Below, in pieces: positions 156-55,600 of a DNA stretch of 64,000 nt. This stretch comes from Diphasiastrum complanatum (taxonomy: Eukaryota; Streptophyta; Lycopodiopsida; Lycopodiales; Lycopodiaceae): positions 68,803,349-68,867,348 of the forward strand of contig CM055099.1 in the NCBI GenBank assembly GCA_029204225.1, given 5' to 3'. The notes beneath the pieces were generated by a model. That model had not been told where the DNA came from, made no database searches, and saw only the letters and a list, made by a program, of their open reading frames with translations. Within the stretch, counting starts at the first letter, position 1. Each line of letters opens with the position of its first letter. The translations under genes and the position numbers were made by a program.

Positions 156-1951
156 TTGGATTTTTGCCAATTTCTCACACTTTTTGATGAGTCACAATTT
201 GCTAAGAGCTTTTCAAATGGATCTAACCCATTGTGCATTGAAGATCTTGACAAATCCAAAGAGGATCTTGACAAACCCGAGGAGGATCATGACAAACCTG
301 AGGATGGAGATATGGATCTGAGTCAAAAGGGGTCGAGAAGATCATCAAGGAACAAGGCCGAGCCCTCAAGGCTCACCTATGTGGACAAGGGAAAGCAAAA
401 GGAAGACTCTACACCTTCTACCTCTTACTCCTTCTTAGCTACATTGCTTGAAGAACCATCATCTTTTGAAGAATCATATAAATCTAAAGTTTGGAGAGAT
501 GCAATGCAAGTAGAGTATGATGCATTAGAAGAAAATCATACATGGAATCTTGTAAATCTTCCAAGAGGGAAGAAACTACTTGCAAGTAAGTGGATTTATA
601 GAATAAAGTACAATCAAGATGGATCTATTAGTAAGTACAAAGCTAGGCTTGTTGCTAAGGGATTTCTTCAAATAAAAGCATTGGATTATGAAGAAACATT
701 TGCAACTGTAGCTAAGCTTGTAACTATTAGATTAATCATTTGCATTGCTACTTTGTTCAAGTGGGATCTCTACCAAATGGATGTGACAAATGCCTTCTTG
801 AATGGCTTCTCAGAAGAGGAAATCTACATGATGCAACCCGAGGGCTTCATCAAGGTTGGTGAGGAGCAAAAGGTGTGCTACTTAAGGAAGAGCCTATATG
901 GCTTGAAGCAAGCACCTAGAGCTTGGTACTCTAGGTTGCATGATTTTCTCTATTCCCTTGGCTTTGTACTAAGTGCTATGAACCTTCTTTATATTTCAAA
1001 TGTAATGAAGGAAAGATCATCATTTTGGTTCTTTATGTTGATGGCATCATTATGATAGGAAATGATGATGATGGCATAGGCAAAGTAAAAGTTGATTTAT
1101 CTAGTGAGTTCAAGATGGTAGATCTAGGCTTCCTAAAGTTTATACTTGGGATAGAAGTGTCTAGAAGTAGCAATTGTACTTTCATAAGTCAATCTAAGTA
1201 TGCTACTTCCATTCTTGAAAGATTTGGTATGAAAGATTGTAAGGGGATTGACACCCCTATGGAGCATGTTGTGAAAGCAACTAATGAAGGTGATGAAGCA
1301 TCCTTTGAGGACATCACCCTCTTTAGGAAGCTTATAGGCTCTCTAATCTATTTGACCATAACTAGACCTGACTTAAGTTTTTGTGTAAGCAAATTGAGTC
1401 AAAGTATGCAAGCTCCTTTAGTTCATCATTGGAAAAGTGCCAAGAGAGTACTTAGATATGTTTCTAGTACTAGATTTTTTAGCATACTTTATGAAGGATC
1501 TAACTTGCACTTGAGAGCCTACTTGGATTCAGATTTTGCAGGTGACAAGATGGATAGGAAGTCCATTAGTGCATTTGCAACATTTCTTTGTGGAGGAGTG
1601 ATATCTTGGCTTTCCAAAAAGCAAGATGCAATCTCACTATCTTCTTGTGAAGCCGAGTACAAGGCATTGACTTCAACAACCAAAGAGTTCTTATGGCTAA
1701 GAAGACTCTTGATGGAACTACATGTGCTAGAGGCCGAGGAGATCCCTTACATATTTTGTGACAATCAAGCTTCTCAACAAATTGCTTCAAATCCTATCTT
1801 CCATGTTAGAACAAAGCATATTGAGATAGCTCACCACTTTGTGAGGGAGAAGGTACAATCCAAGGAGGTGCAACTACATCATGTACCATCATCTGAATGC
1901 ATAGCTGATATCTTAACCAAGCCATTGTCCAAAGATCCATTTTTAAGTTAA
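156..1951 (+). pseudogene. Ty1/copia Pol fragment: reverse transcriptase and RNase H, frameshifted
   Basis: This is the 3' half of a copia polyprotein in two overlapping frames (156-1055 and 1025-1951). The first frame holds an acidic integrase/RT linker and then a typical copia RT (W-x-x-AM...E, KWIYRIKYN, KARLVAKGF, DVTNAFLNG, SLYGLKQAPRAW). The second begins in the RT catalytic block, which reads LYVDGIIMIG where YVDD is expected, so the second catalytic aspartate is lost. It continues into RNase H (DSDFAGD, CEAEYKAL, CDNQASQ, RTKHIEIAHHFVREKV, ADILTKPLSKD). The frame change at about 990-1025 and the damaged catalytic motif make it non-functional. Integrase, protease and gag are absent to the left. 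A polypurine tract and LTR follow directly. Confidence 0.93.
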
Positions 1952-2002: not shown

Positions 2003-2810
2003 AGTGAGGAGGAGTGTTGAAATTGTCATTTCTCACTTGACATTGATTTGTGTAAATATTGATCAAACATTAGAATAATGTGATGATCTGATTTCACACG
2101 TGTGGAGTCTGTTCCCATGTGTGAAAGGATGTATCTTTCATGTTTGTATATATCCAAATTGATTTTGTATCATTCTAGTTAGTGTGAACATGATATGACT
2201 AGTTTTTAGTCAAGTTGACTAATCACCTACAAATTAGCTTTTCCTTGCATGTGCATGAGTAAATGCTCCCACATGGCAAGTGGATGTTCACACGTGTGTA
2301 TAGAGTACTAGAATATAAGAGTTGACCATTTTCCTTAGATCCTATTTTGTAGGAAATATTCCTATATTCTAGGAGACTAGCTTTTTGGATTTTAGTCATA
2401 TTCTAGAAGGTCAACTATTGGATAAGGAATGGATAGATCTGAGTGATGTGGCACTCTTCACACGTGTGAAGACCTGCTGGACTGTACCAGACTCATGGCT
2501 GTACTTGATCCATAAAAGGATCATCATTTTGCTAAGAAGATTGATGGGACTTTTTCACTCTACACTTTTATGAGGTTTCTAGTCATTTGTCTTGTGATTT
2601 TTATGTATGATTGCTATCTAGTATCATTGTACTTGTTGTTTCAGGTGCAGGCCATAATGTGGACAGTACTCCACACGTGTGAATCCTCCTCCACTAAAAA
2701 AGGATCTGTTGATCCATTGCTCTTGCTTAAATCCAAGTGTAGTGAATCTAGATCAAGATCTAATGTGTAGAACTTGATAGATTCATTGATTAGGCAACCA
2801 ATAACTCTCT
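2003..2810 (+). mobile_element. Copia polypurine tract and 3' LTR (right end uncertain)
   Basis: A purine run (GAGGAGGAG, about 2006-2014) follows the RNase H stop and is directly followed by an LTR beginning TGTTGAAATT at 2015. The LTR carries several CACACGTGTG palindromes (near 2096, 2289, 2459 and 2671). No CA end inversely matching the start was found, so the right limit is approximate. The LTR is either decayed or cut. Confidence 0.65.
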
Positions 2811-2876
2811 ATGATTGTAAAGTACAATCATTATTGTCCTAAAAATTGTAAAATTTATCATTGAATGGAATAGGCC

Positions 2877-3110
2877 AGAATCACACAACAATTAGTCCTA
2901 CTGGTGTGTAACATGAATAAGAACCTATGACCAATGTCGCAGACCCAAGTGCTAGAATCTCATGGGATTGCACAATCCTTTTGTACCCACTTTTTCTATT
3001 GAGAATCACACAACAATTAGTCCTAATGGTGTGTAAAGTGAATGAGAACTATGACCTATGTTGGACCCAAGTGCTAGGATCTCTTGGGATATAGGAGCCA
3101 TTTTTGGTAA
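2877..3110. repeat. Tandem duplication of about 125 bp
   Basis: AGAATCACACAACAATTAGT begins at 2877 and again at 3002. Each is followed by the same text (GGTGTGTAA, AGAAC, CTATGAC, GACCCAAGTGCTAG, ATCTC.TGGGAT). The second copy is slightly shorter and about 10% diverged. No coding potential is visible. Confidence 0.85.
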
Positions 3111-3791
3111 TTTCTACATTGTTGAGGGATCTCCAAGATTCCAACCCTAACTTAATAGGGATGAAAGATCCAACAAAATTAGCATTAGGGATATGTTTAG
3201 GGCTGCTCATACCTGCTCAAACTCGTGATGGATCATGTATATATAGGTGATGATCTCTCACTAGAATCAATCAAGCAAACTCATGATTTTCCTCTTATAT
3301 TGGTGCAATTGCTCTCTATGTTCATAATTCTTTGGGTTTTTGTGATTTCTAATCATTATAGGATTGAATGCAGTTTGGTGTACAGTGCTCAGACTGTGGG
3401 AGGTCGTACATTCAATGTCCATAGGATTGATTTGACAATGAAAAATCAGCATGCACCAGTAGAAAATAAGGATCTCTAAAACACATTGTTGAGAATAATG
3501 ATTGTGAGTGCACTAGCAATGAATCGCCTACTCACAGTCTTGAGATCATGATGGACAAAAATGTGCCCATTATCTTCTACTTCATCTTATTATAATATCT
3601 CCTAAAACATGTTGCCTTGGTTTAAAAAAATTTGTACTTGTGAGAGCTACCTAATAAAGAACAATAAATCAGTGCTTTTAGGCTATATTTTCCATGGTAG
3701 AATTAAAAAAAATCATGAACCTGTTAGATCAAATGTCAAATTGAGATGATAAATTGTTGATAAAGCTAGCTCACATTATGGACCTGAGTCC
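3111..3791. other. Intergenic sequence, no gene recognised
   Basis: The open frames here are short (longest 84 codons at 3225-3479) and resemble no family I know. The stretch may be old retroelement sequence. I see no RNA gene. Confidence 0.4.
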
Positions 3792-3824
3792 TGTTAGAAA
3801 TCCATAAATCATAACATGAATAGA

Positions 3825-3895
3825 CAGACTAGGATTCGAACCCAGGACCTCTTTCGTACTTGATGGGATGCTCTACCACTGAGCTATATGCCCTG
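3825..3895 (-). other. tRNA-like Pol III promoter core within TRIM 3' LTR
   Basis: On the minus strand the LTR contains TAGCTCAGTGGTAGAGC (A box, D-arm like, about 3871-3887) and GGGTTCGAATCC (B box, T-arm like, about 3832-3843), spaced about as in a tRNA gene. Acceptor and anticodon stems are imperfect and no clean anticodon loop forms. It therefore looks like a tRNA-derived internal promoter and not a functional tRNA. The D- and T-arm text is closest to tRNAs of the AGCTCAGTGGTAGAGC type. Confidence 0.75.
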
Positions 3896-4084
3896 TTTGA
3901 TAGTTCTCTCTAGAGTGTGGGTTGATATTCCAACACCCCCCCTCAAGCCACACTTGGTTGGGGTCCTAGATGTCACCTGTCCCACAACTTGGGCCACCTA
4001 ACCATGGCTTTGACACCATGAACTGTTAGGTCTAACTTGGCTCTGATACCATGTTAGAAATCCATAAATCATAATATGGATGGA

Positions 4085-4155
4085 CAGACTAGGATTTGAA
4101 CCCAAGACCTCCCTCATACCGAATGGGATGCTCTGCCACTGAGCTATCCACCCTG
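4085..4155 (-). other. tRNA-like Pol III promoter core within TRIM 5' LTR
   Basis: This is the second copy of the tRNA-like centre, with A-box text TAGCTCAGTGGCAGAGC and B-box text GGGTTCAAATCC on the minus strand. It keeps both boxes despite differing from the other LTR at several positions. Retention of both boxes suggests, but does not prove, that they matter for element transcription. Confidence 0.72.
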
Positions 4156-4195
4156 TTTGATAGTTCTCTCTAGAGTGTGGGTTGATATTCCAACA

Positions 4196-4314
4196 CCCCC
4201 CCTCAAGCTACACTTGGTTGGGGTCCTAGCTGTCACCTGCTGCCTCAAAACTTGGGCCACCTAACCATGGCTTTGACACCATGAACTGTTAGGTCTAACT
4301 TGGCTCTGATACCA
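4196..4314 (-). mobile_element. Second TRIM internal unit (PBS to PPT) without its own 5' LTR
   Basis: This unit is nearly the same as the TRIM internal part at 3936-4051. It has a C-run (minus-strand polypurine tract) at 4196-4202 and GGCTCTGATACCA (minus-strand tRNA-Met primer-binding site) at 4302-4314. Where a TRIM LTR should begin at 4315, an unrelated copia LTR begins instead, with no intervening base. Confidence 0.8.
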
Positions 4315-5020
4315 TGTGAAGTTTTTATCACGTGTGAACTTCACCACACACCTTACAAGATCTTTATGAGGTGTTGTGATTGCACAATAAAATCCAAGAC
4401 AAGAACACAATGGCATACAACAGACTGAAAAAACTAACTCCTTACTATGAGAGATAGCTATCAGCAAATATTCTAAGTGCTCATTATGGGAAAAACAACC
4501 TGCTCTTGGGTAGAGAGAGAAAATCAACACATAAAACTCGGGTAGAGAGAGAATGAGCCCAAAACACCAAAATCTCACTATTCACAATATGGCAAGACAA
4601 GCCAAAATTTCCCTACATCAATGAGGCTCGAGTTCCTATAGTGGAGTTGCATGGAAAGTCCACTTCATTCAATTAACTCAACTATCATAGATCCACATGT
4701 AAAACTACATGCATGGATATTGCATGTACTACATGTCAACTTTCAAAATTACCTAGACATGTGTAGATCATGTAAACTACTTTGTGTGTTGCATGCACTG
4801 ATTGCATGTTGCTTGCATGCACTCCAAATGACTTTGCATGTAATCTAAACTTTTGCATGACATCAAGATTGAACATACCTAACTTAAACTCGTCGACCTA
4901 TTCTAGAAAGTTATGTGCTAAATTCACATACCTTTATGTACAATAAAATATACAATGGAAATAAGATAGGCATGGCCCCCAAACTCGAGATAGGAAGATA
5001 TAATTTCACTAATCTTCACA
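4315..5020 (-). mobile_element. Copia 3' LTR, 706 bp
   Basis: The LTR is bounded by inverted ends TGTGAAG...CTTCACA on the plus strand. On its 5' side (minus strand) a polypurine tract (AAGGAGGAG, complement at 5021-5029) and copia RNase H precede it, which marks it as a 3' LTR. It contains a CACGTGTGAA motif near its outer end. Its outer end is fused exactly to the TRIM primer-binding site, so no target duplication is seen here. Confidence 0.82.
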
Positions 5021-5754
5021 CTCCTCCTTAAAATATATGTTTCTATCCAACGTAGACTTTGAAAATAGGCCAAGGTTAGACCTCATCTTGATAAAAACAT
5101 TCTTGAGCAATGGCTTGGTGAGAAGATCTACAACACAATTTGAAGATCCAACATGCTCCAATGAGATCTCTCTCTCAATAACTTTTTCTTTTACAAAATG
5201 ATGAGCTACCTCAATGTGTTTGCTCCTTGCATGGAACACAGGATTGTTTGCAAGAGCCTGAGCCGAGATGTTATCATTCTTGATAATTAGAAGGTCTTCA
5301 TCTCCATAACACTTTAGCTCCAAGACTAGCTTTTTGATCCATAAAACTTCCTTTAATAGCACTAGGATCATCCTTCTTCCTAGTCTCTAAAGGTACATGC
5401 ACATAGCATAAATAGCCAAAGATCCTAAGATGATCTACCTTAGGCTTTTTCTTATACAACATCTCAAATGGTGTTCTTCCTTCTATTGCAAGATTAGGAA
5501 GTCTATTACAAAGATAATTTGCACATGCAATTGCTTCTCCCCAAAAACTTTTAGGTAGAGATGCTTCTAGCCTAAGGGCTTTTGCACATTCACACAAAGT
5601 TCTATTTTTTCTTTTAGCAACTCCATTTTGCTGAGGAGTATAAGAACAAGAAAATTCTCTTTGCATTTTTTCTTTCTCACAAAAGTCTTTAAACTTCTTA
5701 GAGGTATATTCACCTCCACTATCACTTCTCAAAGCTTTCAACTTGAAAGAAAAT
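5009..5754 (-). pseudogene. Copia integrase C-half fused by deletion to RNase H
   Basis: On the minus strand the integrase core runs from LRSDSGGEYTSKKF through CSYTPQQNGVAKRKNRT, LPKSFWGEA, YLCNRLPN and FGYLCYVHVP. It then passes abruptly, near 5350, into the RNase H tail (KEVLWIKKLVLEL, RSKHIEVAHHFVKEKV, DLLTKPL). The whole RT and the first part of RNase H are missing. The integrase starts in mid-domain at about 5754, where an LTR half abuts it. The missing N-terminal half of an equivalent integrase is found on the opposite strand ending at 11015. The gene is inactive. Confidence 0.88.
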
Positions 5755-6215
5755 AACAAATACAACAAAAGCATGAGAGGAGGAGAAATAGAGTTAGAGA
5801 GCAAGGACATTCACAAGTCCATTCCATAAGAGAACCAATCTGCTTGTATTGAAATGAAGATGAAGACATGATTTACAAACTCGAGTTGGCCCCTCTTTAT
5901 AGTGGAGAGGAGGCCTTGGCCTCAAAATCCTATTGGCCCATTCAAATCTAAAAAGAGTGGAAAACTTTTGCATTGATTAGAGGACCCAATTTGACATTGA
6001 AATTTGGTGGGAACCGCTATTATATTCACTAACTTGACATTTAGGCCCTGCGACATTAAAAGTCTCACAAAAAGGCCTAAAGTCCTTTTATTGACTTTCT
6101 ACGTAATCAAATAACTATGTGATCATCGGGTTGGACTTACACACGTAGGGTGCCAAATCCCTCTCACTTATTAGCTAGGGTTAGGGTTGTCTTGGGATCT
6201 GCAAACCCTCCAACA
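5755..6215 (-). mobile_element. 5' half of an LTR (second LTR family), cut at 5755
   Basis: It starts on the minus strand at 6215 with TGTTGGAGGG and matches 12817-13264 over its length, including the TTATAGTGGAGAGGA promoter-like segment. It stops at the point corresponding to about 12817 and abuts copia integrase. The missing 3' half of such an LTR lies at 11018-11299 on the plus strand. A purine-rich tract (GGTGGGGGATAC on the minus strand, about 6216-6227) lies directly upstream, so it was a 3' LTR. Confidence 0.85.
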
Positions 6216-9914: not shown

Positions 9915-11015
9915 AGAGTAAATGATCTTCATCAAGAATTAGCTGGTATTGCTGATGCTCTTAGGAACACTGAACTTGTTCAAGTAGTCCTTAATGGACT
10001 TAGAGAAGAGTATGACAATGCCAAAGAGAGTGGTGAGGATCAATCCTCACAAACTGAAACATCCAGTGGCAAGAAGAAACTGTCAAAGATCAAATGTTTC
10101 TTTTGTGGCAAGAAGGGCCACTATGCATCAAACTGTTTCAAGAAGAAGAACGAATCCAAGCAAGCTAACCTTACTAATGAGGAAGAGTGTGAGGGTAGTG
10201 AAAGAGTTGATTCTTTAATGATGTCTAGTTTTTCATCTTTTCCTTTCAAGAATGAAAAAATCTGGTGGATAGATAGTGGGGCTAGTTCCCATATGTCTAG
10301 TTCTAGAAACTCTTTCACAAGTCTCATGCCATATCTAGGTGAAAAAAGATCAATCTATACCACTAATGACGTAGAGTGTAGAACTGAAGGAATAGGAAGT
10401 ATTCCACTGCATGCATCATCATCAAAATCTTTTTGTTTGCATGATGTACTTTATGTACCTAGACTAACCAAGAATCTCATTAGTGTAGGACAATTGTTTG
10501 ATAGTGGATTGGATGTCAAATTTAGTGTTGACAAATGTATAATCTCAAGAGAAAATGAAGTGGTTGCTAGAGGATCTAGGATTGGAAAGTTGTACAAACT
10601 AGATTCAAGGGAGAGCGCTAACATTTCAGACAATGCTTATGAGACCAAGGTTCATCAGGAGGATTTGTGGCATAAAAGATTGGGACATCCCAATTTCAAA
10701 GCCATGCAATCTATGGTCAAGGAAGGAAAAGTTGTTGGACTACCAAAGACACTGTCAAAGGGGCTTCAACCTTGTGAAGCTTGTGTTGTGGCAAAATCAC
10801 ATAGAAGACTTTTTCCAAGATCAAGCATCAAAACACAACATCCATTTGAACTCGTGCACTCTGACGTTCATTTCTCTTCAACCAAAAGCAAAGGAGGAGC
10901 AAATTGCTTTGTTTCTTTTGTAGATGATTATACAAGATATTCTTGGATCTACATGCTATTTTCTAAAGCCATGGTTTATGATGTTTTCCTTACTTTCAAA
11001 GCTTATGTAGTCTAA
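9915..11015 (+). pseudogene. Copia Gag C-terminus, protease and integrase N-half in one frame
   Basis: A single open frame without an initiating Gag N-terminus covers the Gag C-terminal part (LVQVVLNGL, 9975 on), a zinc knuckle (CFFCGKKGHYASNC, about 10095-10136) and aspartic protease (WWIDSGASSHMS, about 10261-10296; DVLYVPRLTKNLISVGQL). It continues with the GAG-pre-integrase HHCC finger (LWHKRLGHPNFKAM, CEACVVAKSHRR) and the first part of the integrase core (HSDVHFSS, FVDDYTRYSWIY, VFLTFKAYV). It then ends abruptly and abuts the 3' half of an LTR. The continuation of such an integrase is on the minus strand at 5754. It is a truncated relic. Confidence 0.92.
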
Positions 11016-15269: not shown

Positions 15270-16187
15270 CTCCTCCTCAAATCTAGCTTTGGAAACTATG
15301 ATACACTTATCAATTACTCCAAGCAAAGATCTTAGCTTAACAAATGAATCCTTGGGGAAGGATTTAGTGAACAAATCGGCTAAGCAACTCGATGAAGACA
15401 CATGTTGGAGTTTGATTTATTTGGCTTGCACCTTCTCCCTCACAAAATGATGAGCAATCTTGATATGCTTGCTCCTTGCATGGAATGTAGGACTGGTTGC
15501 AAGTGATTGGGCTGACTAGCTATCACAATAGATCATAGGTACCTCCTCGGCCTCCGTAACATGAAGCTCCACCAATAGCCTTTTGAGCCATAAGACCTCC
15601 TTGCATGTTGATGTCAAGGCCTTATACTCGGATTTCGTTGAAGACGATGAAATAGTATCTTGCTTATTTGAAAGCCATGACATTACTCCATCACAAAGAA
15701 ATGCAGCAAATGCACTAGTAGGTTTTTGATCCACTTTGTCACCTGCAAAATCCGAGTCACTATAGGCTCTTAAGCCAAGAATGGTCCCTTTGTAGAGTAT
15801 GCCAAAATTCCTAGTTGATGAGATATATCTTAGGACTCTTTTGGCCATCTTCCAATGTGACACAAGAGGACATGGCATATATTGGCTTAACTTTCCAACA
15901 CTATAACTAAATCAAGTCTAGTTATAGTCAAACAAGGTAAGGAGCCTATCAGCCTTCTATAGAGAGTGATGTCCTCAAGGGAAGCTTCATCACCACTTAC
16001 AGCTGCTTTACATTTTGCTCCATTGGAGTCTTAATGCCTTTAAAATTCTTCATTCCAAATCTATCTAGGATGGATGTTGCACATTTAGATTGACATATGA
16101 AGCTAAAATCCAATCCTCTTATGACTTCTATTCCAAGAATGAAGTCCAATAGGCCGAGATCAACCCTCCTAAACTCTTTAGATAGAA
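15270..16187 (-). pseudogene. Copia RT end and RNase H (duplication copy 1)
   Basis: Minus-strand frames give the RT thumb/connection (RRVDLGLLDFILGIEV, KNCKGIKTPMEQ), then PCPLVSHWKMAKRVLRYISSTRNF, DSDFAGDKVDQKP, STKSEYKAL, KEVLWLKRLLVELHV and SSSCLADLFTKS. Stops and frameshifts are present. The sequence is cut at about 16187, where LTR-like debris of another element begins. The whole segment recurs at 24637-25560. Confidence 0.88.
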
Positions 16188-19485: not shown

Positions 19486-20190
19486 CTAAACATCATGCCA
19501 AGCCATGGATTCCAAGGCATTTTGTGCACTTGAAGATACATCAATTAAAATATTAAGTGCATAAATAATGTTGCCAAAGACAACTTGTCTTGCTTGGTCC
19601 ATATGATTGAGCCTAGATGGCTCCATCTTGATACTCAAGGTTCTTCTTGGAGTCCTCGAGTCTTGAGCTTGCTCCTCCACTTGACTTGACTCCAAACCAT
19701 CAATGAATTGAATAAGGTGTTGATCCAAAGGTGCTTCTTCAGGTTTACAAATCTTCCACTCTTGAAAGATCACATTTCCACCATTGACAAATTCTTTGGC
19801 TGAAAACAGGTAGATTCTACAATCTCTACTTGAAGAGCAAAACACTACCATTATTCCTATCATTGAAATAGGATAATCTTTGGTCCTTACATTGGAATGA
19901 TCATTCTCAAAGCATGTGGACCCAAAGATTTCCAATACAATTGATGTTTCATCTTTTATGACACTATTCAAACTATTACAAAAATAGTTATCCAATGAAA
20001 TTGCTTTATCGACAACAAATGTAGATTTTAAAGCATCCCATTTTATTGTCTTGTCATACAAAGCAATAAACACCATGAATCTTAAAGGTAAGAAACAAGT
20101 CACCTCATGTCTACTAATACTTTCCAAAAAGTATTCAAAGATAGTAGACTCTCCAATGCTCACCACCCTTGCAAGATGCACACAGGACAA
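19486..20190 (-). pseudogene. Damaged integrase C-terminal remnant of the copia element
   Basis: The frame contains IFGSTCFENDHSNVRTKD, SSSRDCRIYLFS and NVIFQEWKICKPEE. These follow the pattern of the copia integrase C-terminal/GKGYR-like region (FGSxCF...KD...SxSRGYRxY...NVxFxEW). It continues to MEPSRLNHMDQ and ESMAWHDV, which resembles the start of the RT module, and then stops. The integrase catalytic core and RT/RNase H are absent. It is in a different frame from the protease. Confidence 0.7.
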
Positions 20191-21028
20191 TTTGCAAGCA
20201 ATTTGATGACTCGGCCATTGTCATTGAGGACTCCCTTGGAACTCTCATGCTTTGAGGCTGATCCTCAATATCTTCCTCCTTTTGATGCTCCTCCTCAATG
20301 CAAGCAAGATCACACTTTGCCAAGATCTCCTTTTGAGTGATCTCCTCATTTGCCAAGCTCATTCTTTCAAAAGCAACACTAGCTTCCAACTTAAGCAATC
20401 TTCCATGCTTAAATCCCTTTGCAATGCAAACATCATTCTTCAAGATGAAACAAACACCATGCTTAAAGTGGACATCCAAACCACTTTCTAAGAGTAAACC
20501 AACACTAAGCATATTCTTGGTGATTGATGGTACATAAAGGACATTTTCTAGATCCATGCATTTTGAGGATTCTAGATACAAAGAGATGGTGCCAACACCA
20601 TCTATCCTACACTCTTCATCATTTGCAGTAAAGACAAACTTTTTAGCATCATTGAGAGAGTGTAAGGTTGAGAAAAAGTCCTTTTCACAAGACATGTGGG
20701 AGCTAGCCCCACTGTCGATCCACCAATTGTCTCTTGAATTGCTATTGCTTGTTGGTGAGGATGTAGATGCCATCAAGAATACATCTACTTCATCCTCCTC
20801 CTCCTCCTTTGCAAGGTTTCCTTTTTTGTCCTCCTCCACTTGTGCTCTTAGCCTCTTGTAGCATTCAGATGCATAATGCCCCTTCTTTTCACAAAAGAAG
20901 CATTTTTGCTTTGACTTGTCCTTTGAACTTGATGCATCATTCTCTTCTTTGGCCTCCTTTGGATGCTTCTTCTTTCCATTGGTCTTCTTTTTGCCCTTGA
21001 ATGAGAAATTGGCTTTCTCATCACCATC
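20135..21028 (-). CDS. Copia nucleocapsid zinc knuckle and aspartic protease, downstream of an in-frame TAG
   Basis: This is in the same frame as the Gag segment, separated by one TAG (21031-21029). It reads a basic linker, the zinc knuckle CFFCEKKGHYASEC, an acidic stretch (EEEEDEVDV), the protease active site WWIDSGASSHMS, and ENVLYVPSITKNMLSVGLLL, FKHGRLLKLEA. It ends in about 75 residues of acidic sequence with no known family. No ATG is needed if expressed by readthrough of the TAG. Otherwise it is not translated. The HHCC pre-integrase finger is missing. Confidence 0.75.
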   Translation of the reverse strand, partial: DGDEKANFSFKGKKKTNGKKKHPKEAKEENDASSSKDKSKQKCFFCEKKGHYASECYKRLRAQVEEDKKGNLAKEEEEDEVDVFLMASTSSPTSNSNSRDNWWIDSGASSHMSCEKDFFSTLHSLNDAKKFVFTANDEECRIDGVGTISLYLESSKCMDLENVLYVPSITKNMLSVGLLLESGLDVHFKHGVCFILKNDVCIAKGFKHGRLLKLEASVAFERMSLANEEITQKEILAKCDLACIEEEHQKEEDIEDQPQSMRVPRESSMTMAESSNCLQIVLCASCKGGEHWRVYYL

Positions 21029-21661
21029 CTACAAAGACAAGGAACTCATCCTAGATTTTGCATGGAGCATCCTACACTCTTCAGCCACTAATACACTGTG
21101 AAGTTTTTCTATAGTTGGAAAAGTGTCTTGGATGGCAAAACTTTGGACCAAATTTGCAAAGTCATCTCCTAGACCATTAAGGACAATTTGTACAAGCTCT
21201 CCATCATGAATCTTCTCTCCAATGGAAGCCAACTCCCTATTTAGAGACTTGATTCTGAGTACATAATCCTGTGCACTCTCCTCACTTCTCCTCATGCTTT
21301 GCAAAATTTGATTTCTAAGCATAAGAACTCTAGAAGTGTTGCTAGACTCATAGATTGATTTTAAAGACTCCCAAGCCTCTTTAGCATTAATACAAGCTGA
21401 TACTTCTCTCAACAAATCATTGCTCACATTTATCTTCACACAATGAAGTGCAAGCCTAGATCTCTTCTTGTATCTAGCTAACTCTTGTGCACCTAGAGGT
21501 TCATCTTCATCTTCAATCAAGAACTCATAAAGGTCTTGGAGAACTAAGAGTGACTCCATTCTAACCTTCCAAATAGCATAATTTGTAGAATTCAACCTCT
21601 CACTAGCTTCTAGAAGGTATGCTCCAGCAGATCCCATCTTACTAGTGACTTCTACAAACAA
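21029..21661 (-). CDS. Copia Gag (capsid) of the non-autonomous element
   Basis: The frame has 210 residues. After a short N-terminus it reads GAYLLEASERLNSTNYAIWKVRMESLLVLQDLYEFL, ALHCVKINVSNDLLREVSAC, AKEAWESLK, SRVLMLRNQILQSMRRSEESAQDYVLRIKSLNRELA and LVQIVLNGLGDDF. This is the full capsid of plant copia elements. The likely start is the internal ATG at about 21637 (MGSAGAYLLEASERLN), because similarity begins there; an ATG at 21661 is in frame. An intact Gag in an element lacking pol suggests selection for Gag or simply a recent origin. Confidence 0.87.
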   Translation of the reverse strand: MFVEVTSKMGSAGAYLLEASERLNSTNYAIWKVRMESLLVLQDLYEFLIEDEDEPLGAQELARYKKRSRLALHCVKINVSNDLLREVSACINAKEAWESLKSIYESSNTSRVLMLRNQILQSMRRSEESAQDYVLRIKSLNRELASIGEKIHDGELVQIVLNGLGDDFANLVQSFAIQDTFPTIEKLHSVLVAEECRMLHAKSRMSSLSL

Positions 21662-22429
21662 GAAATAGATTTGATTGACTTGAAACTCACAAAGGTCTCA
21701 CACTTGCAGTGTTTCACTCAAATTTGATTTCTAGTCCAACAAATGGACTTATAATCACAGTTCTATCACTCTCTCACAAAGCTGAAATGAAGATAAGATG
21801 AAGTGAAAACTACTTTCAAACAAATCTTGCCAAGAAATGGATTTGATTGTCTCTAGAAACTCACTAAGGTCTCTTTCTTGTAATTTTTCACTCAAATTAG
21901 ATTTCTAATCCAACAAATGGACTTACAATCTCAGTTCTAGCACTCCCTCACAAAGTTGGAATGAAGATAAGATGATGTGAAATCTACTTACAATCAAATC
22001 TTGCCAAATTTGGCTATTTTTGGACAAAAAAATGACTTAATCTCTTTCTTCCTTCTTGGTGTACTTTCAAGACCTGTTTTTAACCTTAATAGGACTTGAA
22101 CTCAGCCTAGATTAATTAGATTCCATGAAACAAATTCAAATCTAATCAATGGCAAATGATCTTGGTAGATTATTCTAGAATCTCCACCAAAAATTACACC
22201 AATAGCTCACAAATTGAATTTTTTTGGATCAAATGAATACCATGCATTAAATGCAGGTTCAGAGGTGCCCACACATGTGGAAAGTACGGATTTGGACCCC
22301 TACCAAGTTTGGGATCAAATCTCCTCACCAAAATCAAGATTCTAGCTTGCCCTCTCAATACTAGCTTTTAGCACCAAAACTTGCTAAAAATGGATTTGCA
22401 TTAGATCAATGGCTTATGCTCTTGTACTT

Positions 22430-24537: not shown

Positions 24538-26325
24538 ACACGTGTCACCATAGCGTCACATGTGTGGGACCCACCAATATACATATTTACATAGTTTAAC
24601 TTAGCTAGATTTGCCAATTTTGACAATTTTTCACACTCTTCCTCAAATCTAGCTTTGGAAACTATGATACACTTATCAATTACTAAAAATAAAGATCTTA
24701 GCTTAACAAATGAATCCTTGGACAAGGATTTAGTGAACAAATCAGCTAAGCAACTCGATGAAGACACATGTTGGAGTTTGATTTATTTGGCTTGCACCTT
24801 CTCCCTCACAAAATGATGAGCAATCTCGATATGCTTGCTCCTTGCATGGAATGTAGGATTGGTTGCAAGTGATTGGGCTGACTGGCTATTACAACAGATC
24901 ATAGATACCTCCTTGGCCTCCATAACATGAAGCTCCAACAATAGCCTTTTGAGCCATAAGTTCTCCTTGCATGTTGATATCAAGGCCTTATACTCGGATT
25001 CTGTTGAAGACGATGAAATAGTATCTTGCTTATTTGAAAGCCATGACATTACTCCATCACAAAGAAATGTAGCAAATGCAGTAGTAGGTTTTCGATCCAC
25101 TTTGTCACCTGCAAAATTCGAGTCACTATAGGCTCTTAAGCCAAGAATGGTCCCTTTGTAGAGTATGCCAAAATTCCTAGTTGATGAGATATATCTTAGG
25201 ACTCTTTTGGCCATCTTCCAATGTGACACAAGAGGACATGGCATATATTGGCTTAACTTTCCGACACTATAACTAAATCAAGTCTAGTTATAGTCAAACA
25301 AGTTAAGGAGCCTATCAGCCTTCTATAGAGAGTGATGTCCTCAAGGGAAGCTTCATCACCACTTACAGCTGCTTTACATTTTGCTCCATTGGAATCTTAA
25401 TGCCTTTACAATTCTTCATTCCAAATCTATCTAGGATGGTTGTAGAATATTTAGATTGACATATGAAGCTCAAATCCAATCCTCTTATGACTTCTATTCC
25501 TAGAATGAAGTCCAATAGGCCAAGATCAACCCTCCTAAACTCTTTGGATAGAACGAGATGGGGGTACGAGATGTCGAAACATTTCGTGGGTGCCCACTGC
25601 ACCTCTCCACCACATCCATTCAAGGCCAGAGAGTGACTGGCTAGAAACAGGGCTTCCCCGCAAGGCAATAGAAGCGCTTGACTATTTTGCCTACTTGGAC
25701 ACAATTCGAACGGGCACTATTGTGCTTGTATGAAAATAGGAAATGTCACATTGGAAGTTTGTACATAGGTCTTCGCATAGTGACAGACGGCTCGTCCATC
25801 GGAGGTCTCTAACTAATTTTTGAATCCTTCTTTTCGGCGCCAAAATTCATGCCTTGTTAGGGCACCAAAAACTGAGTGTTGGGCCCAAACTTATCGCAAG
25901 CGGCCGAGATTGGGGGTACGAGACGTCGAAATAGTTCGTGGGAGTCCACCGCACCTCTCCACCATGTCCGTTCAGGACCAGAGAGTGACTGGCTAAAAAC
26001 AGGGCTCACATTTGGTGTTTGACACTATCGTCTCTAAAACGGTTTAACTTCCATGAGTCGGTGTGGACAATTGTTCTAGTAGTTTAGAGTGATTGTGTGA
26101 TGAAAAACTAGACACACTTATGTTGTAAGTCAATGCATTTTTTGACCTGGTTTGGAAAATTTGTCATTTTGCTATTGTGGGTGTCGAAATCATCGCTTGC
26201 AATTTTTAACTTGTGGCATTCAGCTTGTCCATCTGTTATGTTTTAGCATGATGTAAATGAAGGAAGTTTACGTGTGTACTTTGTTGGGGAACACTACTAA
26301 AAAATAGACTCCCATACTAATCAAG
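24538..26325 (-). repeat. Segmental duplication copy 2 (copia LTR end, RT-RNase H, LTR-like debris)
   Basis: The sequence matches 15170-17578 with high identity, except that 16725-17352 is absent. It contains 100 bp of copia LTR (24538-24636), a copia RT/RNase H pseudogene on the minus strand (SSSCLADLFTKS, PCPLVSHWKMAKRV, DSNFAGDKVDRKP, STESEYKAL, KHIEIAHHFVREKVQAK, RRVDLGLLDFILGIEV) and the GTACGAGACGTCGAAA direct-repeat debris. Its left edge lies inside the G-box of the LTR (ACACGTGTCACC), directly beside gypsy sequence. Confidence 0.88.
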
Positions 26326-46600: not shown

Positions 46601-49600
46601 ACTCGGATAGATATATTTCAGCCGCACTTTGCTCTTCTTCTACTCTTGCTGCTTCCGATACCAAGATTTCATGGTACCAGTAGGTGGTGGATTTACTACG
46701 TTCTTTGGACATCTCTGTCATAGACCTTCCAACGGGCGCTTATCGGTATATTCGTCGCCAGCTCTTTCGCCGTTACATACAGCACACATGGGGACCCAAC
46801 TCAGCTTCCCGACCGCACCACATTTATTATCAGACACACTTTCTTTCCCTTGATCCATCCGGTTTACCTCTGCTCCCGTTGTATCTCTCACAGTCACTCT
46901 CATATGGCTTGCATTACTGCATTATTGGACAACTATGCACCTCTTCCCATCAGCTTGCTGTTGAGACTGGTCGCTGCTGGAATATCCCGTGTGAGCACAG
47001 ATTATGTCGCCTCTGTTCTATGCGCGAGCTTGAAGATGAGGCACACTTTTTACTTCGATGCCTAGTTTATTATGAGATCCGTGGTCGATATTATTGTCTT
47101 ATTTTCAGTAAGATAGATCTCAAAAGTGGGTACCATCATATACGGAATGCGAAGAGGACATTCAAAAGACAGCCTTTCGAACCCGTTTTGGACATTATGA
47201 GTTCTTGGTTATGTCGTTTGGGTTAACCAACGCACCCGCCACGTTCATGATGCTCATGAATGATGTCCTGCGTGACTATATGGGCAAGTTTGCTGTCAAC
47301 TTCATTGATGACATACTAGTGTTTAGTAGGTCGGTAGGGGAGCATAAGATTCATCTCCAGACCATCTTTGGCAAGCTACAAGAGACTATCTTGTATCATG
47401 TATGCCCATGCTCAGAAGACTGAGTTGTCTAAGACTCGTGTCGAGTATCTGGGTCACGTAGTGACGACACTCTATATGTCATATTTAATCTGCAAACAGC
47501 AAGTACAGCTACCTATTGGAATGATGCATCAAATGATCCACTAGGTTTCAAGATATGATGAAAGAGAGTGTAAAAAGGACCTAAATGTTGGACCTGTAGT
47601 GGTTGACTTATAAATATTGGATACACAAGCTATAAAGTGCATTATGATCTATAATGTAGGAGACTAGACTCACTAGAGACATAAAAGATTTCCCTAAGAA
47701 GTGCAAAGGAAAAGATTTGAGTCCTAGAAAAAAATTGAAAATTCAAATTGAACCTGAACACGTTCAATTTATTATCTGCAAAGCTTTTAGGGAATTGGGA
47801 AGCATCTTTTTGTAGGAAGAATACAAATGTAAGAAAACTAAAAAATAAAGTATGGAAGAATAAAAAAGATGTAGTTTCAAAAATTGAAAGAATTTGAAAA
47901 TTTAGAATTTTACTTCAACATATCCATAAAAGGACTGTAAAGTTAATTGGAGGGACCCTTTTGTAGAAAGTTAGAAAGCCAAGGCCCAATGATATAAAAG
48001 TATCCACAAAATTCAAAAGAGTACAAAAGTAATTTGAAGCTATAAAAATTTCGAGTTTCTATTATCCTACTCCAAAGTGAAATTTTAATATTGTTTTTGG
48101 TCCTTAGCAGCAAGGGATTCAGAATTTGAGCATCCCTAATCCGAAGAAACATTTGAGCATTGTAGAGAAAGCTAGAGCAATAAGCAGGGAATTAGCGCCA
48201 TCTCTTTGAGGCCATAGAAATGCTCTTAATGAAAATGCATCTTAACTCTAGAGGGCAGTGTCCACTCTCACTTGTCCAGAAAAGTGCTCTGATGTCGTTA
48301 TGGCCGAAACAACACGAGCTGAAAGAAATATAAATTTTACTGAAAGGAGATGTCAATGTGCTAATCGTTAGAAAAATGTTATGAAAATACAAATGAAGAA
48401 ACTTGCAAAATTGAAAGCTGGATAATCATTAATAATCAGAAGTTAGAGCCAAGTCGACCCTCCAACCATTGACATAAGCATTGTGAGGCCCTACAGGCCT
48501 ATTTATTGTCTGAAGGCTTGAGTTGGGGCTGGATCTGAGTCATTTGATGAGGGCCCAATAGTAGTCCTTTTATGGATAAATGTACGTCTAATTCTGTTAG
48601 ATGAGGGAGCCTAGAACCGTATGGTCAACCAGCAAGTAATGACAAACAATGCTGTTGGGCTTATCTATTGTTAACGTTCTAAATGTAGGTCGGATTGATT
48701 TTTCAATTGGCTCATACAAACAAAAATGAGCAAGTTTGATTGTTTGCGGTTAATGTTAAAGCTACAAATGAGGATCATAACATTTGTACTCTCAAAAGAA
48801 ACTTTAATGTGGACTCAAGCATGAATTGCAATTGCATATGCTCCTTATGTGAACCATTCCTGCTTTATAACCATGCTTTCTAACTCCATTTCTCTTGTTT
48901 AGATCCTGCTAAAAAAGTGTAGCGCAGCTAGCAAATCAATCCTTAATTTGACATTATCCTACCTTGTGAAGTTAACTTATTGAAAATGTGGATGCTTTCA
49001 TCATCAGATTTGTGCTAAATGTCACCTAGTTTTTCCTGAATAGTGTTGGTGGAAAACGAAGAAGAGGTGCCAAAAGAAGGAAGAAGAGAAGGGAGACAAA
49101 GGATGTTCTTCTATCTCCTCGTGGAAGGAAGAAGAGGAAAATGACAGAAGATGTCCTTGATATTCCTCCTGGTAGGGAACGCTGCAGGAGGTCAGATGGA
49201 AAACAATGGCAGTGCAGCGGTGTTGCCCTTGAAGGTAAGGCATGGTGTGAGAAGCACTTTAATTATTATCAGGAAAAAGGCAGGAAGGATGAGGTTGGAT
49301 CGAGAGTTGGCAAGAGACGCTCAAAAAAGAAGCGAAAGCTTGATGAGCCTAAAGTGGAAGGTGTCACGGACAACAGGAATACTTCGATACTGAATAAGCA
49401 AGCAAATTTATCCCCAGGTACCAGTTTTGAAAAAGTCGTTTCTCACGAAGTTCCAACTACATGTGCAAGTGAGAAAGATTCAATAAGTTTGGATGGTGGC
49501 TCTTTTCCTACAGAGAATATAAAGAAAAAGGCTCGAAAGCCCCATCATAGAACTTCACAAAAAAATTCTGGAATCAAACAAGCCCAGGAAAATAGAAGAG

Positions 49601-52600
49601 TGGAGGAAGGGCTTGGTAATGGAGCTCCGAAAGGAGACAGGCAGCCAACAAATCTCAATGACCTAACAGGTTCATATAGTGGTTCTGTTCCAAGGGCAGT
49701 TGCAGAGAATATAAAGAAAAAGGCCCGAAAGAACCATATTGTGTCTTCACAGAAGAGTACTGTAACTGATCAAGCTCAGGAAAGTAGAGTAGATGAAAGG
49801 CTTGGTAATGGGGCTGCTAAAGGAGACAGGCGGCCGACAAAGCTCAGTGATGAAACCCCAGTTGAAGCTTTCCTTGACGTGCAAGAGGCTAAAATATCAA
49901 TGGGCAAGTTTGGCAAAGATATTTTGGTCCCAGAAGCTCCAGTGTCATTTCAGCTTCCTTTTGACAATGGTGGAAATTCAAGAAGCCCTTCTCGACCATC
50001 TGCCTCGGTATGTCCTTGGCATTGAATGCTGAGAGGTCTGACGCTACCGTTGTGTTCAACTTGTTATCCCAACCAAAATCAATGTTAATGTAAGTTGTGT
50101 ATCGCATGTATTGGTACTAAATGTAATATGTTGAGTATCATGGAACTGATCTGTAAGTACTAAGTTACCTTTGGTCTTGTAAGAAGTGAGAATCATTTCT
50201 GCGATTGCCTTTTTCCTTCCAGTTCTAGAGTGTCCTAACCAATTTTTTGATAAGTTCCTGGTGTTACGGGATAAAAGGAGCATTAACTTAAGTGCTGCGT
50301 TGTATAATTCTAGGACGAATTAACCAGCAAAAGCGGTGGCAAAAAAAAAACGAGGTCAGAGTTAAGCTTGATGTGCCATCAGTGTCAGAGGAATGACAAG
50401 GGTGCAATTATTTCCTGCCTTAAATGCAAAAGAAAGCGTTATTGTCTTTGCTGCGTTAAGAAATGGTAAATGTTCCATTGAGTTTGGCTTCTTTTATCAG
50501 GTTTGCATCTGCTGGTAATGTGAGTTGAGTCACCAGATTAGTTGAATGGTCAAGCAATCCATGGTACACTCACTTAGTCTTTGCCATTGTCAAGGTATCC
50601 TGACATAAAGAGAGATGCCTTTGCAAAAGCTTGTCCCTTCTGTCGAGGGAACTGTAACTGTAAGGCTTGTCTGCGCAGCGATGGACCTGTCATGGTAAGT
50701 TGTACCCTAAAAGCAAGATCAGAACAGCAATCCTATTTGTAAGTCTAGCTTATCATCCTACTGATTGTCATATCTCACCGGTTTTGTGTCAACTTAATTT
50801 CAGAGGCTTTTACAATTCTGACTGTGTGTGTGGTGATGATGATTTTGCAATGCAGAAGAGCTTCGAAATAAATGATTCAGAAAAGGTCAAATACCTTAGC
50901 TACCTGTTGGTCTGGATTCTTCCCTACCTAAAGGAGCTCAACAATGAGCAAAAATCAGAATTAGAACTTGAAGCAAAGCTGCAAGGTTCGATCAGAGCCT
51001 TGAGATATAATGCTCTTCCATCTTTGAAAGTGTCTACTTTTTCCAATCAGGCAGATTTCCGTCCTTTTGGACAGATCATGGCATTTCTTGCTAGTAAGCA
51101 GATATGGCCCTAACGGTTCTTTGCTTGATGTCGAGATGCATTTTGTAAAATGTAATAATCTTCCTGACTGCAGAAAGACTATATCCAGTTATTGAGAGGG
51201 CTTCAGTTCAAGCTGATGAGCGGCTAGTATGGTGAGTTTCAGTTTGCTACTAGCTTTCTTGATTTTGTTGAATTCCTTGATCCCTCAAGCTGAGAAAAAA
51301 GGAGGAAATTATATGACTAGTTTTTATGGTTATTTGCTGCTCGAGCTTGACTTATTAGCTACAGGCTGAATCTATTTGTGCTCTTACAAAGATGACTCTT
51401 TGAACCTTTTTGATAATCAAAGTGAATCAGACATCCTTACTCATTTGTGTGTGCTTATGAATCATTTAACCTGAACAGCTTCATAATTTTGACAGTAAAC
51501 TCAAGGGAGTTGGCTTAATTGGTTGGCTTGACATCCAAAGTTTCTTTGGTCTCAAGTTCGAGCCTCCCCTTGGAAACCAAGAAGCATAATTTTGACAGTA
51601 AGGTCTTATTAGAAAACTCTTTAGTCCGAATTATATAATTCACAACTTGACGACATTCTGGTTTATTTTCTATATCTTGAGTTTCTACCTTCTTTATAGG
51701 CGATATCAATTTTTTTCGTACTTTTTGGATAATCCGGTTCTGGTAAATTCTTTCTAACCTGTTTGTTCGTTTGAGTCCCTTGAGGCTGAAAAATCATAAC
51801 TACTGCTCTACGATATTCGCGGTGGTGCAGAGTTTTTAATAATTTGTTTATCGATACAGTGACAAATGCTCCACAGGCATTGTAGATTTTCACAGAAGCT
51901 GTCCAATTTGCAACTATGATCTCTGCCTCAGGTGTTGCACTGAAATACGTGAAGGATTGGAAACTGGGGGCATGCAAGTTTTTGGAGACACTGCAGCTAA
52001 AAGTATCTGTAACAAGGACATATTGGAGACGAGTGACTGTACCAATGACGATCAGAGAAAGAGAGGCTCATCAACAGATGTAGAGCAGAATAGTTTGGTG
52101 GAAATGCAGTCATCAAAGCATGCAAATCCAGAAGAGTGTTCAAGGACCCTCGCTCAGTCTTCGATCTCCAAAGTAAGTCAGGGTGGATGTATTGCATGTA
52201 TTCAAGGATGCAATGCATTTTTGAAGCTAAAAACACTCTATGACTCAGAAATGATTGCAAGAATGGAAAGGGATGTCAAGGATCTGGTTGGAGAGCTTAG
52301 CATTGATCGAGGTAAGAATAATCAGCAATGCACACTATGCCATTCCTCTGACCACGAAGTCGTCGGTTCCAGAAGTTTGCGCTTGGCTGCTCAAAGAAAG
52401 GACGCCTTTGATAACCACATTTACTGTCCTACCAGTGCTGAAATTGAAAATCAGGGGTTGAAGCATTTTCAAAGGCATTGGATACGGGGTGAGCCAGTAA
52501 TTGTCAAAGATGTTCTGAAAGCAACCACTGGGTTAAGCTGGGAGCCCATGGTCATGTGGCGGGCATTTCGGGAAACCACAAAAGGAAAAATGGTTGATGA

Positions 52601-55600
52601 GAAGAAGACGGTCATAGCTGTTGATTGTCTTGACTGGAACGAGGTAAGCAATTGGCATCATTTTTTTTGAAAAGGTCCTGCTAGTGGCTGAATGCTCTAA
52701 GTAACTCCAGGTGTCGCCAATTTCTGTTGCATTTTCAGTCTTGTAAATATCACAGTAAGGAGCAAGGGCACTAATTTAGTTTTGTTTGTAGAAAACAACA
52801 ATGGGTAACTTAAAGATGTAGGTTTAGAGGCATATGTGTTAATGGCAGCGTGTCACTTTTCTCCTGAGACCACTTTATTTTGATGGATATTGATCTCCTT
52901 TAATATCATCTCTTCTCTTGAGCGCGGACACGTTCTACTCCCTGGTGATTTCAATGCCAGGCTTTCATGTAGATACATAGCTATTCATGATATCGAGAAA
53001 GATCCATGAGCCTTTGCTGAGGAGGAGCTTGGTATTTAGAGAGGATCTGCAGACATGATGGACCCAGCTACTGCCTATGGAGCTCTTACTAGATTATGTC
53101 TAGGAGTCTCATAAGTGGTCATGTACAATGGCCTTTTCAGATGGCCTTCATCAGGTGATTTCACTTGTCCTCCACATAGTGGACATCACAACATAGTTGA
53201 CTACCTCATGGGATCCTCCATCTAAATACCTCTATGCTTGGCCCACTATCTTGCCACTTTATAGATTGTGCCATGCATTTCCATACCTTCCAAACCTTCA
53301 GAGTCCTCCCTATTCACAACACATATGGTCAGTGAGGCCATTGATAAGTTGAAGCATAATTGTGCTAGAGATGTAGAGGATCTTGAAGCCAAGCTACTTG
53401 TTGCTAACGTTTGTAGCCTCAGTTGTTGCCACTTTCCTTGATACACGGTCACTATAGGCTTTCCACTTTCTTAGTGTACTCAAATTATACATCCCATCGA
53501 CAAGATGGTGATCCCATATAAAAAACCTATTGTACTATCATGATCAGACACATCATGGCTAATTCTTATCGATCTGCTTTCCAAACATTAATAAATAGAG
53601 AGGTAGAGTCACGTTATTTACATGCTATTGGATAGGTTGGCTTTTGGGGACATCACTCTACATCTAATCATATCCTTACCCTCAGGTCCCCCCTCAGGTT
53701 ACTCATTAAGGTGGCCGAGTTTAGATGAGAGCATGTTTCTTCTTGTGTATTTCAAGTGTGCATTTGACTCAGTGCCTCAATACATGCGCATTCAAAGATT
53801 GTGGGACCTCTAGTTTTCACATGATAATATATTATCTATAATGATAGTATATGAGCAAGTGGTTGGTTGCTTTAGTTCCTCTGTGGGTATCTCTGAGCAG
53901 GTCACAAGCACTATCGGGATCAAGAAGGCTTGTGCACTCTCGCTTTGACGAACTCTAGGGAGTCCTTGCTCATCATGGTGGTTATGGGCCCAAACGTGGC
54001 GATATTTTGATATCCAATCTCATGTACGTGATGATGTGATCTTGATCTCTCCCACCAGGGAGGGCTTGCAGCAACAAATTGACACCTTACGCACATTTTG
54101 CCTGCCCGAGGTTTGGAGGTGAATGTGAAGAAGATGGTCTTCAATACATCTCGCTCCTTCATGTGGCGTTGACTCTCACTTTAGATGACCAACCTTTGGA
54201 AATTGTCTTGTCATACACATAGTTGGGGGTTCTATTTTCTGGTCCTATAATTGACATGAGAATGGCTGCCACATGCTGGTCAGGGAAGGGCCAATCCTCC
54301 CTAGTCACCATGGAGAGGTTTGTTTTAGGTGACATATATGGGACTCACAAAGTAAGTGTCGTCTTTTTGACACACTAGTTACACCATTGTTATGTATGTC
54401 GCAAAGGGTTGGTGGATCGAACTTATGATGTTGATTGGGCCCTATTCTCATGACTTCAGATTTTCATGTTATCACGCATGATTAGGAGTAAGCAATCAAT
54501 CTTACAAACATTGTTTGAGTTTGCGAACATAAAACATTGGATGCACCTTGCATCCCAAGGGTAGCTGTAGCTTGTAAGCTACCTGTCTAACTTTCATTAT
54601 GATCCTTTAACTCTATCCCAGATCTAGAGGTTGAGAGAGCTACATCTACTAAATACCATAGTGGCAGACATGGCACTTTATAAGAGGGTATTGGGAAGCT
54701 TAAATTCTGACATGTGCATCTTAGGGGTGGGTCCCTAGCACTATTGGAGTAAAGCAGGGGTGCCCAATCTCTTCTAGCTTCGTTGGCAACTCCATCAATG
54801 AGCTCAAGATGACTTTCCTTGAGATGGTGGTCAAGGTTGCAGGCTGGGCAATATATATATATCCATTTTACTCTAAGTGGACGATATTATTTGGTTTTCA
54901 AAAGAGATGTTGGATAGACATTTAGACATTCGTCACTCTTTTTTTGTCTTATGAAAGGATTGGAGGTCAATGTAAAGAAGACCAAGATTTTGGTCTTCAA
55001 TTCATGCAGAGACAGATTCTTTTGCTATATGACCTGCCATCAGAGATAGTTTCATTATATACTTATTTGGGAGTACTCATTTTGTTGCTCCCATTTTCAG
55101 CATGAGGCAGGCGCTACTAGTCGATTTGCGAAGGGTCATTCCTCTTGGTTGCTATGGAGTGGCTTCGTATCAAGGGAAATATACGAGACATGCAGAGCCA
55201 GTGTTGCCTTTGACACTTTGGTTACTCCCATTGCTATGTATGAGGTGGACACATAGTCCACTAGTTTCACAGAATATGATTGGGCCCGGCTACCCATGTT
55301 TATAGAAGCTCAAATTTGGCTTGTGATACTTACATATATTATTTATCTAGTATTGCTGATATTTGCAAAAATGGTCTTCTTGTGTTGCTCAGGAATTTTC
55401 TTCTAAGATAAGTCTGGCAATCAACCTGATAATACATTAGATATAAAAGATGTCAAATGTCTCTTGTGTTAACAGGTTGAGATCAACATACATCAATTTT
55501 TTGCTGGTTATGAAGAGGGGCGTATGCATAAAAACGGATGGCCGGAGATTTTGAAGCTGAAAGACTGGCCACCTAAAAACTTTTTTGGTGAACGACTTCC

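Follow-up and report, generated by a model that had tools for sequence, protein, structure and literature searches.

A short non-coding retroelement of Diphasiastrum complanatum, found at positions 3792-4314 of the window (the whole 64,000-nucleotide stretch that was analysed), is best explained as a Helenus-type TRIM that is copied in trans by Ty1/copia elements sharing its initiator-tRNA-Met primer-binding site (PBS), a reading to which a probability of about 0.75 was assigned. Within this reading, the classification as a Helenus-type TRIM is close to certain, copying by the machinery of two Copia families (here termed q and p) is highly probable, and joining of Helenus and Copia before integration is likely, while joining by a PBS-transfer circle in particular has an even chance of being correct. 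As judged from the genomic sequence, modules of Helenus (H) meet those of q or p mostly at the boundary of LTR and PBS, and the composites are integrated as single units with one 5-bp target-site duplication (TSD).

The window locus consists of two units of 260-263 bp on the minus strand, each comprising a 144-bp LTR and an interior, in the order LTR-interior-LTR-interior. Read on the minus strand, the LTR (TGTTGG...CTAACA) is directly adjoined by the PBS TGGTATCAGAGC; after a 116-bp interior come a G-rich polypurine tract (PPT) and the next LTR. The LTRs at 3792-3935 (3' terminal in the array) and 4052-4195 (middle of the array) are direct repeats of about 90% identity. Interior 1 (3936-4051) carries the PBS at 4040-4051 and the PPT GAGGGGGGG, which adjoins the LTR at 3936; interior 2 (4196-4314) matches interior 1 at 93% and also has a PBS (4303-4314) and a PPT. 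The 144-bp repeats and the 116-bp interior with PBS and PPT had been recognised correctly in a first-pass annotation of the window, which overlooked the second interior and took the locus for a simple two-LTR element instead of an array fused to a Copia LTR. Past 4314, where a third Helenus LTR was expected, none was found; an LTR of Copia p stands there (4315-5020, minus; TGTGAAG...CTTCACA, about 706 bp), joined at the PBS to interior 2 and about 80% identical to both LTRs of the p element in L045/L057. Copia remnants upstream of this LTR (5021-5810, minus) comprise the PPT-like AAGGAGGAG and then coding ORFs, namely an RNase H-like tail at 5009-5386 (minus; read by eye, no Pfam match) and an integrase/SH3 ORF at 5298-5810 (minus; Pfam SH3_retrovirus 2.6e-11, rve 4e-4). 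No target duplication surrounds the window copy, in which GGACT follows the array and AGGAG precedes the Copia LTR. The window region is duplicated, since a 99.7%-identical copy of positions 2292-5754, element and flanks included, was found on the same contig at C8:56.6 Mb (the limits are the extent retrieved). Elsewhere in the window, ORFs at 72-1951, 9915-11015, 15516-15911, 19486-21697, and 24783-25277 read by eye as further Copia fragments, and ORFs at 49030-56757 resemble exons of a host gene for a JmjC-type histone demethylase; the ORF at 51843-52667 matched proteins named lysine-specific demethylase, with only 34-38% identity to the named angiosperm proteins among at least 120 matches, and gave no Pfam match.

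Both window LTRs contain a tRNA-like sequence on the minus strand. The Rfam tRNA model (RF00005, model positions 1-71) matched at 3821-3893 in the first LTR with 41.1 bits (E 2.8e-5) and at 4081-4153 in the second with 43 bits (E 8.5e-6), and ARAGORN called a tRNA, tRNA-Thr(GGT), in the second LTR only; the tRNA-finder check proposed in the first-pass annotation was thus positive for both LTRs with Rfam and for one with ARAGORN. The A-box and B-box text at tRNA spacing that had been noticed in each repeat was confirmed in both LTRs and was absent from all 1000 dinucleotide shuffles of each, and in the same number of shuffles per LTR ARAGORN likewise called no tRNA. When folded alone, the tRNA-like parts did no better than shuffles (z 0.43 and -0.13).

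The genome (1.745 Gb) was searched with the 523-bp stretch, yielding 84 matches from the best 40 of 1242 candidates, and with the interior alone, yielding 40 matches (best 40 of 1126 candidates). At least dozens of relatives are present in this genome. Because each search scored its best 40 out of about 1000-1900 candidates, and because a dimer served as the first query, multi-unit arrays are over-represented and frequencies are not estimates; the verified copies are multi-unit arrays and composites only. In the 36 loci retrieved (L009-L044), 40 array rows were annotated, from which duplicates (six: L010, L016, L022, L024, L040, L044), composite rows (eight: L011, L015 twice, L017, L021, L026, L031, L035), rows led by an LTR of p (two: L009, L034), arrays truncated at an end (seven: L014, L027, L032, L036, L037, L041, L043), and three further rows in L019 were left out of the TSD count. 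An exact 5-bp TSD was present in 12 of the 14 distinct simple arrays with both outer ends (GTCTG, TAATA, GAAAC, GTGGT, ACTAC, TCTTA, GTGTA, AGGGA, CTCTC, TCGAA, TTCAC, TATCA); L033 had one TSD mismatch and L020 no TSD. For GAAAC and ACTAC, the TSD was recognised by eye once a mutation in the first LTR dinucleotide was tolerated, and the chance control, in which 246 of 200000 random flank pairs matched at fixed positions, is slightly too strict for these two. Some arrays lack a TSD because each is half of a larger composite. The further copies for which a search had been suggested were accordingly found in the host genome as LTR-PBS-PPT-LTR units with 5-bp TSDs. Mutations were concentrated as transitions at CG sites (8.8%) and CHG sites (7.5%) versus 0.5-1.4% elsewhere, as is expected of methylated repeats. 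Several unplaced contigs repeat chromosome loci, with flanks alike in the retrieved sequences for C100/C5, C2402/C2, and C3283/C9, and by match pattern only for C1616/C2 and C926/C9; these are probably alternative haplotypes.

Across the family, 88 of the 99 full LTRs are distinct, and ARAGORN recognised a tRNA in 74 of these 88, comprising 54 Thr(GGT), 7 Ile(GAT), 6 Pro, 4 Thr(AGT), and 3 others, and Rfam gave 47 tRNA matches in 12 of the retrieved loci, reaching up to 53 bits. The A box was kept in 59 of the 88 LTRs by exact and 78 by relaxed matching, the B box in 60 and 67, respectively. Given these motifs, Pol III may be the main promoter's polymerase, a proposition on which we would place even odds, and the least certain step of the proposed replication would be its start, a transcript made by Pol III from the tRNA-like boxes. 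A rival view, to which we give somewhat less than an even chance, is that the tRNA-like part is a captured relic with idle boxes, Pol II transcribing the element as it does other LTR elements. The 14 LTRs without an ARAGORN tRNA favour a relic, as does conservation among the 88 LTRs, which shows no excess in the tRNA part (0.956 versus 0.984 before and 0.977 after it). TTTT was absent from the body of 10 of the 12 arrays examined (L025 has one TTTT in the array; the span of L019 contains other elements and is hence uninformative) and followed the B box in just 2 of the 88 LTRs, so Pol III would read into the flank; furthermore, composites bounded by LTR_H are about 5 kb, which is long for a Pol III transcript. 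What speaks against idle boxes is, first, a CAA motif that 76 of the 88 LTRs retain just before the start of the tRNA, a position at which plant tRNA genes start, and second, a different family in L019 (about 1030-1387, minus) with the order LTR-PBS-interior-LTR. Its LTR and interior differ from those of the first family, and the iMet PBS is the same. Its tRNA-like parts score 50.3 and 32.2 bits, and where BLAST aligns it to the LTR of the first family, the matches are confined to positions 49-124, essentially the tRNA-like part. This kept tRNA part is the best sign that the sequence may be retained for a reason. A further diverged tRNA-bearing copy was observed in L019 near 1625-1811 (plus). 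As for origin, the tRNA-like part might be a SINE that was inserted into one LTR and then copied to both, an origin put forward for Helenus generally in the available text of Kojima 2024 (PMC10886601); we regard a SINE origin as rather doubtful.

The class itself is already published. Helenus was defined in Kojima 2024 as TRIMs with tRNA-like LTRs, the only plant family in the available text of that paper (PMC10886601) being from Selaginella; the design is therefore not new, as the first-pass annotation, which knew of no well-described family of this kind, had allowed. The earlier proposal of a TRIM with a tRNA-derived LTR promoter, paralleling the 5S promoter of Cassandra, is supported, as the tRNA part is in both window LTRs and not in one alone, and LTR-PBS-PPT-LTR copies with TSDs exist. 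The element has tRNA-like LTRs with A and B boxes, short non-coding units with an iMet PBS and G-rich PPT, and a 5-bp TSD (12 of 14 arrays), and thereby fits Helenus by its structural features as described. According to the same available text, Helenus elements have the tRNA-like sequence in both LTRs, a PBS by the 5' LTR, a PPT, and in plants a 5-bp TSD, as here; Thr-type tRNA predictions are also given for some fungal and bivalve families, and tandem arrays are noted in a zebrafish family. The Selaginella family Helenus-1_SMo has an LTR of 120 and an interior of 85 (PMC10886601), compared with 144 and 116 here with the iMet PBS. Partners of Helenus were deduced in that text from PBS similarity and one shared interior, and composites with autonomous Copia do not appear in it.

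Among related designs, Cassandra (PMC7215508, available text) shares Pol III promoter text in the LTRs, the PBS TGGTATCAGAGC, and tandem arrays with the present element; unlike here, its promoter text is 5S rRNA-derived with Pol III terminators, and its autonomous partner is stated there to be unknown. No 5S rRNA was found in the window LTRs, the Rfam gathering scan of the window having given two matches, both tRNA. SINEs lack LTR, PBS, and PPT and are mobilised by LINEs, whereas LTRs, PBS, PPT, and 5-bp TSDs are present here. The TA-TRIMs of Gao et al. 2016 (PMC4717578, available text) form L3I2 and longer arrays with TSDs, as does this family; their putative autonomous partners share LTR and interior with the TRIM, and the term "tRNA" is absent from the main text as available. 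A likeness also exists to the three-LTR insertions with one outer TSD that Sabot and Schulman 2007 (PMC1950507, available text) explained as arising during reverse transcription. An internal extra LTR and one outer TSD are present here too, and outer-LTR similarity is not above the background of a uniform family; in their case close relatives were joined through R, whereas here unrelated LTRs are joined at the PBS and both reciprocal orders occur.

Partner q is an ordinary Copia with its own LTR of about 450 bp, and its pieces match Pfam Retrotran_gag_2, gag_pre-integrs, rve, and RVT_2. A stand-alone q was seen in L063 and L039, where two copies of LTR_q enclose a leader and pieces of gag and RT, and where a Helenus array is nested near the PPT (L063/L039, TSD TTCAC). 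The Copia partners in this genome probably include both q and p. Composites of H and q occur in two reciprocal orders, LTR_H-int_q-LTR_q-I_H-LTR_H and LTR_q-I_H-LTR_H-int_q-LTR_q (int and I denoting interiors), with the source switching within the PBS; in most composites, the switch is at the LTR/PBS boundary, within the PBS common to the elements and a short similar U5 end. Simple nested insertion was rejected as the cause of the q composites because the q module has no 5' LTR of its own and follows the Helenus LTR at the PBS. In L055 (2195-2340, minus), a degenerate Helenus LTR stands directly before a leader and a by-eye Copia gag start unlike q.

One exact TSD surrounds the whole in 12 of the 13 distinct Helenus-Copia composites (q or p) readable at both ends, which argues that Copia machinery copies Helenus. 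Nine of ten distinct H-bounded composites had an exact TSD. L048 (ATTAC) runs from L-I-L through a PBS into the interior of q, most of whose pol is deleted, and onward through the PPT, an LTR_q of about 450 bp, and another PBS to I-L-I-L; the others are L049/L015 (AAGCC), L059/L052 (TAAGT; 3' LTR with a deletion near its end), L090/L011 (GTGCT; deletion at the second joint), L089/L031 (ATGGT; deletion at the second joint, changed first LTR base allowed), L073/L091 (ATTGC), L085/L092 (ATATA), L077/L093 (TATCT; changed LTR start allowed), and L078/L096 (GATAC), and one mismatch was found in L084/L094 and its duplicate L083/L095 (GTATA/ATATA). The one q-bounded composite that could be scored (LTR_q-I_H-LTR_H-int_q-LTR_q, C4:71.31 Mb) had the exact TSD GACTG. 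The q-bounded 5' order also occurs at L075, L076, L080, and L088, and in L076/L099/L100 the 3' LTR_q is present, the retrieved stretch stopping inside it. Two insertions have outer ends from different LTR families, and both have an exact TSD: L053 (GTTAT) starts with the first 35 bases of LTR_q and continues with the tail of a Helenus interior and then an array, and L045 3944-9001/L057 1-1110 (TGAGT) has a Helenus array end to end with Copia p (both LTRs) and no PBS between them, so not every joint is at the PBS; the latter insertion is also on C5 (L046/L058). Internal deletions at a joint affect 3 of the 13 composites (L053, L090/L011, L089/L031).

The junction of LTR_H, PBS, and q was seen from the LTR_H side at 25 of the 40 best-scored places; 18 of these 25 were retrieved, LTR_H being present in all 18 and a q-leader match in a short piece in 16. 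LTR_q-PBS-I_H was found in 32 of the 41 best-scored rows and LTR_p-PBS-I_H in 9 of 41, the window locus among them. These counts are not rates, because they come from best-of-list samples with some duplicates. At L014/L044 (junction at L014 1469, minus), a Helenus interior is preceded at the PBS by sequence ending ...GGAGCCATAGAACA, perhaps the LTR of a third partner.

The joining would take place on cDNA within the virus-like particle. Plus-strand strong-stop DNA (LTR and PBS) ends in the PBS, and its normal partner is the PBS end of its own minus strand; it might instead anneal to the PBS end of another cDNA. Two cDNAs swapping partners in this way would form a dimer circle int_q-LTR_q-I_H-LTR_H, and strand displacement at one LTR would open the circle and duplicate that LTR, giving either reciprocal composite. 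The same transfer between two Helenus cDNAs would give tandem L-I-L-I-L arrays. We tentatively extend this, at somewhat under even confidence, to the proposal that heterodimer cDNA circles arise routinely, via the shared PBS, between Helenus and an autonomous Copia whose LTRs are unrelated to its own, that these circles are opened at either LTR, and that tandem TRIM arrays generally originate by the same step. Such a circle predicts identical outer LTRs, a prediction that found no support in a family this uniform: in six composites, of which one is a duplicate, the two outer copies of LTR_H had 0-12 mismatches of 142-144 and were no closer than pairs from different loci (mean 6.0, 28 comparisons), and in nine three-LTR arrays the outer pair was not consistently the closest.

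Joining could alternatively have followed integration, if single-strand annealing or homologous recombination linked a one-LTR q circle (PBS-int_q-LTR_q) to a resident Helenus array at its PBS, or the reverse for q-bounded composites, with the TSD being that of the older resident. This would yield the same modules and TSDs as in the H- and q-bounded composites and could use the short U5-end stretch plus PBS in which LTR_H and LTR_q are alike, although that homology is very short; integrase-independent cDNA insertion at PBS/PPT homology with tandem products is described in the available text of a review (PMC12786077). For the H- and q-bounded composites, insertion of a circle into a resident copy is a serious competitor, whereas it leaves unexplained the hetero-ended, TSD-flanked L053 (GTTAT) and L045/L057 (TGAGT), whose exact TSDs point to joining before integration; overall, we consider it rather unlikely. 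Neighbouring integrated elements might instead have exchanged sequence by unequal crossing-over or gene conversion, but as the source of arrays and composites this is far less probable. Post-integration recombination is commonly invoked for LTR elements of complex or tandem structure (PMC7215508, PMC1950507, available texts), but its recombinants should lack flanking TSDs according to the latter, and these are exact in 12 of the 13 composites and in 12 of the 14 simple arrays; moreover, at the joints read, the likeness between Helenus and q is limited to the PBS and its surroundings. Descent of the composites from a single replicating composite lineage has little support, as none of the 25 commonest interior variants was confined to composites of different loci; three q-bounded interiors are equal to the majority sequence, so such a lineage may still exist.

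In the literature searched, which covered few subscription papers, neither a plant Helenus outside Selaginella nor reciprocal TRIM-Copia composites were found. Larger related elements are given for just 11 of 289 plant TRIM subfamilies in the available text of PMC4717578. Since the LTRs of Helenus are unrelated to those of its Copia partner and the PBS is common to both, each composite is a tagged recombination event: it names the partner and places the switch at the PBS, and its TSD shows that the joined product was integrated. The composites thereby make the questions of the TRIM partner and of tandem-array origin directly testable. If the circle reading is true, one of the reciprocal products is a protein-coding Copia bounded by tRNA-promoter LTRs, and plus-strand transfer at the PBS would also explain tandem TRIM arrays. 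The Helenus-Copia composites are thus physical clues to who copies the TRIM and how its tandem arrays form.
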